52,496 nucleotides of DNA from a virus, in IMG/VR virus record IMGVR_UViG_3300028045_000022, positions 1 to 52,496 of that record. The stretch is one strand, 5' to 3'. Numbering within the stretch: the first letter of the stretch is position 1; each line of letters starts with the position of its first letter. The notes below the pieces were generated by a model that searched no databases, was not told the DNA's origin, and saw nothing but the letters and a program-made list of their open reading frames with translations. The translations under genes and the position numbers were made by a program. Positions 44,390 to 50,677 of the stretch are shown here, in pieces.

Positions 44390-44736
44390 AATTAGTCCTT
44401 TATATAGATTTTGTTAATTTTTTTTGTGAGACGGGAATATTAACGTTTGTATATATACATATATATGTAGCCCACCCCCTTTTATATAATATAGTACAAA
44501 ACAGGGATCCTCGCAAGTATTTTATATAAAATTTCATCATCTGCAACTGCTAGGTTATTATATTATGATCAAAGTAGTTTCGATTGATTCGAGCCTACCC
44601 CCTGTTTATAATAATAACTCTGTGGAAAGTACGGAAAACACAGTATAAACCTTGTACATAACAGGATAAAGCAGTTCCTGAACATATCGTTAAACACTGC
44701 GTAATACCTAGTACAGCTAGGAGAGAGGTGGCTATC
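44390..44736 (+). ncRNA. divergent junction and structured leader 1
   Basis: There is no gene in this stretch apart from flanking starts. TATAAT at 44485-44490 may be a rightward -10; RNA would then begin about 44497, exactly where the helix AAACAGGG (44499-44506) starts; its partner CCCTGTTT is at 44600-44607. Inside is a hairpin GTAG..TCGA/TCGA..CTAC (44574-44598). The conserved hairpin CTGTG-loop-CACAG follows at 44620-44643. From there to the start codon the sequence matches leader 3 closely, including the last 20 bases before and across the ATG. Confidence 0.65.
44620..44643 (+). ncRNA. conserved-loop hairpin, copy 1
   Basis: Stem CTGTG/CACAG encloses loop GAAAGTACGGAAAA. The other two copies have ACGTG/CACGT: two base pairs differ, and both are compensated. 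CTTGTACA follows in all three. Confidence 0.75.
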
Positions 44737-45029: not shown

Positions 45030-45150
45030 TAATTCGAAACTAGTCGTCCTAATAGGGTGGCTAGTCTGTAGGGGATAAGCTTCCTGCACTGATGAGATAG
45101 CTTACGTGGAAAGTACGGAAAACACGTTAAAACTTGTACATTTCGAATTA
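45030..45150 (+). ncRNA. structured leader 2: closing helix, pseudoknot and conserved hairpin
   Basis: A perfect 10-bp helix, TAATTCGAAA (45030-45039) with TTTCGAATTA (45141-45150), closes the element. Inside are ACTAG/CTAGT; an H-type pseudoknot with S1 TGTAGG/CCTGCA (45067-45072/45083-45088) and S2 AAGCT/AGCTT (45077-45081/45099-45103); and the conserved hairpin ACGTG-loop-CACGT (45104-45127). It ends 31 bases before the 61 aa gene. Pairing was done by eye. Confidence 0.7.
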
Positions 45151-45367: not shown

Positions 45368-45468
45368 TAGATATTCATATTTAGAACCCAAATGTGCCTT
45401 CTTGATAGTTCGCTATTGAGAGGGCCATTTTAGGTTTTATATCTACGTGGAAAGTACGGAAAACACGT
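45367..45468 (+). ncRNA. structured leader 3: long layered hairpin plus conserved hairpin
   Basis: Nested stems: AGATAT/ATATCT (45369-45374/45439-45444), AACC/GGTT, AAATG/CATTT (45390-45394/45426-45430), then a 13-bp stem starting GCCTTCTTGATAG (45396-45408/45413-45425) on a TTCG loop. The conserved hairpin ACGTG-GAAAGTACGGAAAA-CACGT follows (45445-45468). The outer stem can extend by 2 bp at the cost of the hairpin, a possible switch. Confidence 0.75.
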
Positions 45469-45559
45469 TAAAACTTGTACACAACAGGTTACAGTAGTGC
45501 CTGAGCATTTCGCTAAATACTACACAGATTCTAGTACAACTAGAGGAAAGGTGGCTATC

Positions 45560-48454: not shown

Positions 48455-48764
48455 GGGATTGTTCCTCCGCACACCTCCGCACCCAAAAGCATGCGTCTCG
48501 TCGTTCCTCCTCACCTTACTTTGGTGGTCGCTTCGCTCCATGGGGTTATAGCGGCACTCGTTCCTCGGCCTTATGGACCACTCGTTCCTCGTTCGGATTT
48601 TGGGTGGTCGGTAACATCTAACTGTCACCTCCGCACACAACAACAGTGGACACGCTCAGTATTATCTGTAACATATATCGTTTGTGTACGCAGGAGTTAA
48701 AAATGTATAGAATGTCTTATTCAGTGTCTATCAAATGGTTGGTAGGCGCAAACAAGGGGTTGTT
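48455..48764 (+). other. GC-rich non-coding island with CCTCC repeats, and leader of next gene
   Basis: I see no credible gene here. From about 48461 to 48660 the DNA is far richer in G and C than its surroundings. It contains CCTCCGCAC three times (48464, 48474, 48628), ACTCGTTCCTCG twice (48556, 48580) and a related CGTTCCTCC at 48502. GTGGTC at 48524-48529 and 48604-48609 can each pair with the single GACCAC at 48576-48581, giving two mutually exclusive hairpins. After 48700 the first ATGTCTTA element and the leader of the 102 aa gene begin. Confidence 0.6.
48707..48731 (+). repeat. ATGTCTTA element, copy a
   Basis: ATAGA[ATGTCTTATTCAGTG]TCTAT: 5-bp stem around the conserved core. GTGTCTATC can instead pair with GGTAGGCGC downstream (9 bp with wobbles). 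Confidence 0.6.
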
Positions 48765-49118: not shown

Positions 49119-49313
49119 ATGGGTGAATTTATGAAAGCTTTTAAGAATGACTTAGCAATAAGTTTATTCGGTAGGAGCCAAGATGAAGCACAGGATAAAG
49201 CAATTTGTGTTTCTTGTGGCGGAGATGCAAGCGAATTCGTTGACGAAGTAAGTCAGCACGAATACTCCATTTCAGGAATGTGTCAAAAGTGTCAAGATGA
49301 ATTTTTTGGCTAA
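49119..49313 (+). CDS. small zinc-ribbon phage protein, 64 aa
   Basis: The product has two CxxC pairs, CVSC at 30-33 and CQKC at 55-58, joined by GGDASEFVDEVSQHEYSISG. The pattern C..C.......F.DE.S..EY.ISG.CQ.CQD.FF recurs in many small phage proteins, which probably bind zinc; their target is unknown to me. The N-terminal 28 residues are helical. The site is AAAGGAG, 7 bases before the ATG. It sits in the early array with an ATGTCTTA element on each side. Confidence 0.85.
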   Translation: MGEFMKAFKNDLAISLFGRSQDEAQDKAICVSCGGDASEFVDEVSQHEYSISGMCQKCQDEFFG

Positions 49314-49392: not shown

Positions 49393-49545
49393 ATGAAAAA
49401 TTTAGTTGATCTTTTTAGCTCAGACGTGTCACATTTGTTACATTTAGGTTTTAGGCCTGAAGATTTCAATCCAAGACCCGTAGATAAAGTTGAGTTTGGA
49501 TACAAGGAAGATTTCTTAGATACAGAGTTTGATGACTTTGACTAA
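49393..49545 (+). CDS. small acidic protein, 50 aa
   Basis: ATG at 49393 gives MKNLVDLFSSDVSHLLHLGF and then RPEDFNPRPVDKVEFGYKED, ending in an acidic tail (TEFDDFD). CAAGGAT lies upstream. It occupies one module between two ATGTCTTA elements, which supports its being a real gene despite its size. The acidic tail suggests a DNA mimic or inhibitor of a host protein, but this is speculation. No family recognised. Confidence 0.6.
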   Translation: MKNLVDLFSSDVSHLLHLGFRPEDFNPRPVDKVEFGYKEDFLDTEFDDFD

Positions 49546-49554
49546 GAAAAATAA

Positions 49555-49580
49555 ATAGAATGTCTTAATTGATGTTATTC
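49555..49580 (+). repeat. ATGTCTTA element, copy d
   Basis: AATAGAATGTCTTAATTGATGTTATT, 9 bases after the 50 aa gene's stop. It opens the non-coding module; TGATG here can pair with CATCA at 49590-49594, looping out AAAGGAG. Confidence 0.55.
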
Positions 49581-49706
49581 AAAGGAGTTCATCACCAAAT
49601 AGCCTTATATCTCTGACTGGTGAATCAGAGGGAAATTATTAGATAAGAGCAAACTAATGATTAAATATGAGGCCACCGCTCGTTTTTAACTAAAGGAGTA
49701 GCAGAA

Positions 49707-49715
49707 ATGCTATAG
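49707..49715 (+). other. possible two-codon minigene
   Basis: ATG CTA TAG lies 8 bases after AAAGGAG. The ATG falls across the GAAA loop of the hairpin TAGCA-GAAA-TGCTA. Phage lambda bar minigenes with such dipeptides stall and drain peptidyl-tRNA. It may equally be chance. Confidence 0.25.
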
Positions 49716-50184
49716 TTTCAGACCTGAGTCATGTCACAAAACTGACTTATTACGGACTATATGGGGGTAGGATCTCTTCACTTATGAACAGTAATGTTCT
49801 CGGTGAGTAGTCTGGGGGTTTGGTACTGACCTAATTAGTAAAGTACTACTGGTTTTTAATGATTGCACCAGTTATCCTAAAACAATCATAATTCGTATCT
49901 AAAATCTGGGAAGGCTTTGCGGAGCTGGAGTAAAAGATACGTGCATTTTTGTAGTAGATCTTAATAACAACACTACATTGATGTACTTAAATATTAAAGT
50001 TGTTATAGGAGTTGTGTACACTTCTTTGATGGTATAAAACCAAAGTGCATTTATGCGTAATAATTTGATATTGTGTCTAGTAACGCGCCAATATCATCTT
50101 ACTGAAAGACTACAGCGTGTTAAAGGAGTTGGGTACACTTCTAATAAAAACAAGTGCCCATTATATTTTATAAGATATACTAAA

Positions 50185-50209
50185 ATGAATAGTGCGTCTT
50201 ATTAAGTAT
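50185..50209 (+). repeat. ATGTCTTA element, copy f (divergent)
   Basis: ATGAATAGTGCGTCTTATTAAGTAT, close to copy e; it closes the non-coding module and precedes the 93 aa gene. Confidence 0.45.
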
Positions 50210-50230
50210 AATTTTTAACTAGGAGGATAT

Positions 50231-50512
50231 ATGAGAGATCATTTATCAAAATTGAACTTCAAATATGACGACAAAGGTCAACAAGCTATTCTTTTCTTCC
50301 TTAATGGATATGGTGTATCTGTTGTATGGGGAGAAGGTAGGTACGGTGATGGTGTTGATTCTTGGGAATTGGCTGTACTCAAAGGTGAAATGGATAATTG
50401 GGAACTATGTTATGACACTGATGTAACTTGTGATGTTATGGGTTGGTTAGATCGCAGTGAGGTTAACAAGGCAATCGAAGATGTTTACAAGTTAGAATTT
50501 GTAAATGAATAG
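50231..50512 (+). CDS. conserved phage protein, 93 aa
   Basis: The product starts MRDHLSKLNFKYDDKGQQAI after a strong AGGAGG. Its core, FLNGYGVSVVWGEGRYGDG, then WELAVLKG and LCYDTDVTCDVMGWL, matches a small-protein family I have seen in many early phage regions (N-G-Y-G-x-S-V, then A-V-L-.-G, then L-C-Y-D-T, then D-V-.-G-.-L). No activity is known to me. It is preceded by element copy f and followed by copy e. Confidence 0.8.
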   Translation: MRDHLSKLNFKYDDKGQQAILFFLNGYGVSVVWGEGRYGDGVDSWELAVLKGEMDNWELCYDTDVTCDVMGWLDRSEVNKAIEDVYKLEFVNE

Positions 50513-50533: not shown

Positions 50534-50677
50534 TGATTAAGGAGGAACCACAATTGAGGGTTTACTAAGAGAGTTAGGTATCTACTGTAAAAGATATTAA
50601 TTCCATCTAAGAAGAGAGGGATGGTATAACAAATACTTCTCAAACTAATTTTTTTAAAACAATATCTAGGAGATATT
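50534..50677 (+). ncRNA. structured leader of the 141 aa gene with pseudoknot
   Basis: TATCT/AGATA forms one hairpin (about 50580-50596). An H-type pseudoknot follows: S1 CCATC (50603-50607)/GATGG (50620-50624) and S2 AGAAG (50610-50614)/CTTCT (50636-50640). An AAGGAGG at 50539 has no start codon in reach and is looped out by CTTGATT/AATTGAG. Confidence 0.5.

Follow-up and report, generated by a model that had tools for sequence, protein, structure and literature searches.

An intergenic module in the genome of an uncultured phage probably specifies a real regulatory or decoy RNA that was previously undescribed. Our preferred but tentative reading is that of a genuine structured noncoding locus in which several separate, compact units with pseudoknots take the place of a single giant RNA, with a 3' cassette that may function as a cis-acting leader or attenuator. 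Structured, pseudoknotted noncoding RNAs as such are known from phages. Noncoding RNA genes of uncultured phages are poorly known, and a cassette of this type, apparently recurring in a relative, offers a defined and testable element.

Genomic setting of the noncoding module

The window (the whole stretch of DNA that was analyzed, 52,496 bases from IMG/VR) encodes a tail sheath, a major capsid protein and a large terminase subunit and was therefore taken as a fragment of an uncultured myovirus. Its terminase shares 66-80% identity with those of five other uncultured contigs, and alignment of its capsid protein led to 18 loci. Named phages are distant, the best terminase match among them being that of Moorella phage MTATph1 (30%). 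Structural genes occupy the minus strand up to ~44 kb and small genes the plus strand from 44.7 kb; no tRNA or tmRNA was found. The genes flanking the module have either relatives of unknown function only or no relatives, and IMG/VR protein queries with its 93-aa and 747-aa neighbors returned no matches. The features discussed in this section are as follows.

49556..50211, plus strand: noncoding module, with no plausible open reading frame and no coding remnant
49556..49576, plus strand: boundary element TAGAATGTCTTAATTGATGTT, with other copies at 48708, 49071, 49321 and 50510
49593..49681, plus strand: upstream structured unit, predicted by minimum-energy folding and the pseudoknot finder from a single sequence with no covariation
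50231..50512, plus strand: gene downstream of the cassette, 93 aa, PHROG 4074 (unknown function)

The upstream gene ends at 49545 and the downstream gene starts at 50231, with no plausible gene between them. The longest plus-strand frame inside the module codes for 50 aa (50053-50205) and lacks a Shine-Dalgarno sequence at the normal distance. Fragments of the module's frames, compared with PHROGs and with 15 related contigs, gave no matches and no sign of a decayed coding gene, so that the original prediction of about 650 bases without a reading frame was borne out. The module is also the largest gap free of frames of at least 45 aa in the window contig and the 15 related contigs.

The boundary element occurs as TAGAATGTCTTA at 48708, 49071, 49321 and 49556, as the TAGAGTGTCTTA form at 50510 and as a degenerate form near 50187. 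It had been proposed that this same element brackets every module of the operon; the five copies and the degenerate one agree with that proposal in part, being confined to 48.7-50.5 kb of the window and falling into two sub-types. The exact pattern of the element had no matches in IMG/VR. One copy is included in the segment 49321-49374, which lies between the genes 49119-49313 and 49393-49545 and forms a strong terminator-like hairpin followed by TTTTTT. Two other segments nearby were noted. The first, 48455-48690, is GC-rich amid AT-rich surroundings, contains repeated CCTCCGCAC and CACTCGTTCCTC and has no phage match; possibly it is a further noncoding unit or an insertion. The second, 50545-50650, is a short stretch without a clear gene, where an ATT-initiated frame runs for 15 codons to a TAA and then stays open for 15 more.

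Within the upstream structured unit, a predicted helix (49602-49610/49665-49673) encloses two hairpins (49610-49616/49625-49631 and 49635-49643/49654-49662), and the loop of the first of these would be able to pair with CACCA at 49593-49597. Further downstream, at 49694-49716, the frame ATG-CTA-TAG is only two codons long; AAAGGAG precedes it at good spacing, and its start codon lies inside a GAAA-capped hairpin, an arrangement that we take to be reminiscent of the bar minigenes of lambda.

Pseudoknots and the duplicated cassette

An exhaustive search for H-type pseudoknots ranked three sites of the module in the order E, D and C, and recovered all three with exactly the geometry originally claimed for them. 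These sites and the neighboring elements are listed below, with stem and loop lengths in the order S1/L1/S2/L2/L3.

49848..49889, plus strand: pseudoknot C, 5/6/7/2/10 or, equivalently, 6/5/7/1/10
49950..50006, plus strand: pseudoknot D, 6/8/8/0/21, first half of cassette copy 1, 57 nt
50007..50047, plus strand: small pseudoknot of copy 1, AGGAGT/ACTTCT and GTGTAC/GTGCAT, with a hairpin inside the long loop (predicted from the direct repeat and a pair check)
50066..50122, plus strand: pseudoknot E, 8/7/8/0/18, first half of cassette copy 2, 57 nt
50124..50159, plus strand: small pseudoknot of copy 2, AGGAGT/ACTTCT and GGGTAC/GTGCCC, with a one-base L1 and an A-rich 11-nt loop (predicted by the finder and a pair check)
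50159..50216, plus strand: long A+T-rich terminator-like hairpin followed by TTTTT (predicted from folds; absent from the list of the consensus terminator scan)

The sum of the three best scores in the module, the number of sites scoring at least 28 and the number scoring at least 31 were each reached in 0 of 300 dinucleotide shuffles of the module. On neither strand of the 52-kb window does another simple H-type site score as high as E, and 19 sites of the window, D and C among them, score at least 31. When the 70 nt preceding the AGGAG of the adjoining repeat (see below) were shuffled, 0.12% of the shuffles had a pseudoknot at least equal to D that ended at the repeat, and none of 5000 had one equal to E. 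Because real coding windows outscore shuffles, we regard the cluster as unusual but not astronomically so.

Nested folding gave a different picture. The full-length module reached modest z values of -3.05 on the plus strand and -2.46 on the minus strand (20 shuffles), and in sliding 120-nt windows its mean of -0.76, compared with -0.34 for the whole window, was near background. Nested local folding of the module is not exceptional as evidence of structure.

D and E resemble each other in several respects: both are 57 nt long, both have an S2 with TAAC near the start and GTTA near the end, and both are directly abutted by a copy of the same 25-nt direct repeat, TGTTAWAGGAGTTGKGTACACTTCT (25-mer TGTTATARGARKKGKRTACACTTCT), which recurs only at a spacing of 117 nt. 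Their likeness had been interpreted as covariation inside one molecule. This interpretation is supported as far as the architecture goes, for two copies with stem sequences that align poorly.

According to the predicted pairing, a further H-type pseudoknot, a small one, starts with the 25-nt repeat and conceals an AGGAG that resembles a Shine-Dalgarno sequence. Since D and E each abut the repeat with which a small pseudoknot starts, the locus contains a tandemly duplicated cassette consisting of a large and then a small pseudoknot. Between the two copies, S2 of the small pseudoknot shows one two-sided change and one G-U change with no pair broken, a comparison of two copies with few homologues. 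The last cassette copy lies ~105 nt before the start codon of the gene at 50231; its AGGAG is 107 nt from that codon and differs from that gene's own Shine-Dalgarno sequence; the terminator-like hairpin at 50159..50216 sits between this copy and the gene.

Altogether four AGGAG sites are present in the module, three of them without a start codon at the normal distance. Such sites, and the separation of the units by boundary elements and hairpins, are consistent with a role in RNA processing or stability, in which the pseudoknots and AGGAG would protect or mark the ends left by cleavage of a polycistronic early mRNA, e.g. as a barrier to exonucleases or as binding sites for 30S subunits. We consider such a role unlikely, as the AGGAG paired inside the small pseudoknots would be blocked for 30S binding. 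A decayed gene or an unselected spacer with chance pseudoknots appears more improbable still. It would fit the near-background nested folding, and the AAAGGAG..ATG-CTA-TAG at 49694 does resemble a gene start with an immediate stop; the lack of a coding remnant in the frames tested, the pseudoknot shuffle tests and the duplication of a cassette with preserved pairing all argue against it.

Known RNA families and a likely counterpart in a related phage

At the gathering threshold, the module matched no Rfam family, including GOLLD, ROOL, OLE and preQ1. A covariance search of 49530-50240 at E-values up to 10 produced nothing convincing and again did not match GOLLD, ROOL or OLE, in agreement with the earlier failure to match the module to GOLLD or ROOL, and a scan of 50112-50172 returned no family. 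The suggested likeness to these large ornate RNAs held only in part. Like GOLLD, ROOL and OLE, the module is noncoding, several hundred bases long and rich in pseudoknots, and GOLLD and ROOL also occur in a phage context; unlike them, it has no Rfam match and no strong global nested fold that would support one large RNA.

Searches for nucleotide homologues of the module in GenBank phages and PLSDB plasmids yielded none that was convincing, and none of the structural-protein relatives searched had DNA matching the whole module. Of the matches to a cassette pattern, the seven in IMG/VR were not plausible as cassettes once the sequences were read, and the two in GTDB genomes were likewise unconvincing. 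The duplicated two-pseudoknot cassette with its buried AGGAG matches no Rfam family and, in the other searches, only a related 147-kb phage contig (IMGVR_UViG_3300033146_000946, hereafter G002).

In its general layout the cassette is similar to the gene 32 operator of T2/T4, preQ1-I and SAM-II, in which, too, a phage or bacterial gene is preceded by a compact H-type pseudoknot with Shine-Dalgarno-like bases within the fold and an A-rich loop over stem 1. It differs from such H-type leaders and operators by having two consecutive pseudoknots, duplicated, by the absence of a sequence-family match and by an AGGAG that does not serve as the gene's own Shine-Dalgarno sequence. The fold prompted us to consider tandem preQ1-I-like riboswitches, as the helix, UACAC, the 3' strand and the A-rich loop follow one another in the same order and AC precedes the 3' strand of P1 as in type II (PMC11625349). 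This candidate was largely refuted and is now very improbable: the preQ1-I model (RF00522) had no match at the cassette element at a permissive E-value, with weak matches elsewhere only, and no QueC or TGT genes were found in six related contigs (incomplete contigs, positive controls).

Small H-type pseudoknots, predicted here by the finder and the pair check, are also characteristic of the ToxI/CptI type III antitoxins. A one-base L1 and an A-rich loop have been described for CptI (PMC4627078, PMC5086642), and the small pseudoknot of the window has this geometry. However, type III antitoxins consist of head-to-tail repeats of 34-50 nt, each forming one pseudoknot, and with no such tandem array across the module its membership in this class was rejected. 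No PF13958 match that would indicate a ToxN/CptN-type toxin was obtained in four contigs, and the control genomes were likewise without a match.

The minus strand of G002 carries at 128242 the sequence CTGTTATAAGAAGGGTATACACTTCT, which agrees with repeat copy 1 in 20 of 26 positions without gaps. Among ~980,000 positions no other non-self match of the repeat was as good (next best 18), and in 20 replicates of sequence from an order-2 Markov model of four contigs no match of 20 or more occurred. The match lies in the most GC-rich of the large intergenic gaps of G002 (0.34 versus 0.25 for the contig), retains the S1 pairing of the small pseudoknot with A-U replacing the G-U of the window, and is 102 nt from a same-strand start codon, compared with 107 nt in the window (two cases only, with no kinship of the genes implied). 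Since AT-rich 26-mers from the module find agreement in 21-22 of 26 positions at other places, we treat the match as good but not conclusive; judged by its sequence, the G002 element is likely the counterpart of the small-pseudoknot repeat of the window. Matches of other module 26-mers to relatives were mostly AT-rich and were taken as chance. The AAA gene of G002, used as bait for further copies of the gap, returned G002 alone.

The same G002 gap contains a match to the abiF RNA (RF03085) at 128290-128324 on the minus strand (L022:8290-8324), with a score of 28.8 bits, below the 37-bit gathering score, and an E-value of 0.0023 over 311 bases and all families or 2.6e-4 for the genome. The conserved AAGC..UCU..AA..GCUCAAAUC core is kept, the stem is different yet paired, and a T run follows. 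The G002 contig gave no match to an Abi_2 (AbiF) gene, and it probably carries an orphan abiF antitoxin RNA. In C. difficile, abiF RNA is associated with the AbiF toxin and inhibits it (PMC12373285), which makes the G002 RNA a candidate phage decoy for AbiF. The abiF RNA itself is a single hairpin, unlike the cassette beside whose likely counterpart this probable copy lies, and no abiF match was found in the window.

The main rival to a leader would act in trans: a noncoding RNA, or several small ones in a string, would be released from the early transcript, with the hairpin at 50159-50216 as the 3' boundary, and would bind host or phage proteins as a decoy, e.g. as an RNA-antitoxin mimic neutralizing an RNA-controlled host toxin or another defence protein. 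The lack of an open reading frame, the terminator-like end, the CptI-like small pseudoknot with its one-base L1 and A-rich loop (PMC4627078, PMC5086642) and the probable orphan abiF RNA in the gap of G002, a contig without an Abi_2 match, are all compatible with this explanation, and there are precedents, since phages escape ToxIN through RNA mimicry (PMC3475682) and use RNA anti-CRISPRs (PMC10651486). Weighing against it are the missing tandem 34-50 nt repeats, the lack of an abiF match in the window and of a similar RNA in the plasmids and bacterial genomes searched, and a start-codon distance that is constant in two phages and suggests cis action. We view the trans-acting RNA as possible, although on the unlikely side. 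If it is correct, the cassette would belong with ToxI mimics and RNA anti-CRISPRs among the RNA decoys of phages, and the probable orphan abiF RNA of G002 would allow a direct test of whether phages escape AbiF toxins by means of RNA. It is also conceivable, but rather doubtful, that we are dealing with a fast-changing RNA counter-defence locus, whose small intergenic pseudoknotted RNAs would each imitate the RNA that inhibits a different one of the host's toxins or effectors. The probable orphan abiF RNA of G002 would then be the first recognizable item and the cassette of the window a new one.

The leader model and pseudoknot leaders elsewhere in the window

For the 3' half of the module we favor a cis-acting leader, based on the gap without a plausible gene, the pseudoknots beyond chance, the duplicated cassette, its likely G002 counterpart at a similar distance from a start codon and the pseudoknot leaders found elsewhere in the genome. 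The terminator-like hairpin between the cassette and the gene adds support, and the near-constant position of the element before start codons in two phages suggests cis action. Several points speak against a leader: the module is long for one, no start codon is near cassette copy 1 or the upstream units, the G002 counterpart is a single sequence, AT-rich 26-mers attain similar identity by chance, and nested folding is near background.

In the leader model, the locus would be transcribed as part of the early small-gene operon in which it lies, and the upstream units (49583-49945) would be structured RNAs. The small pseudoknot would fold and hide the AGGAG, probably stabilized by a bound protein or ligand, and its folding might be coupled to the polymerase passing the downstream hairpin or to ribosomes reaching the gene at 50231. 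Duplication of the cassette would then provide tandem control. Such a cis-acting cassette would represent a new kind of phage leader control.

Further leaders with pseudoknots are found in the early part of the small-gene region.

44620-44721 and 45445-45544: two paralogous leaders, forming a 116-nt repeat, 77% alike

The genes behind both leaders begin with the same MAIV peptide. In each leader, a first hairpin is followed by a predicted H-type pseudoknot, with 5/4/5/0/15 as its geometry in the first copy, and then by another hairpin that directly precedes the start codon. Five of the 20 pairs differ between the copies, and all five are changed on both sides and still paired (one as T-G), with none broken. 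No other covariation in the window is as clean, and the five compensated pairs indicate that the phage uses H-type pseudoknots in leaders. Taken together with the G002 relative and the lack of a strong global nested structure in the module, the paralogous leaders suggest a series of small units with pseudoknots, either leaders or sRNAs. The exact pattern of the 44.6-kb leader motif had no matches in IMG/VR; within the window, the motif of the first hairpin of these leaders, GTGGAAAGTACGGAAAACAC, has a third occurrence at 45104.
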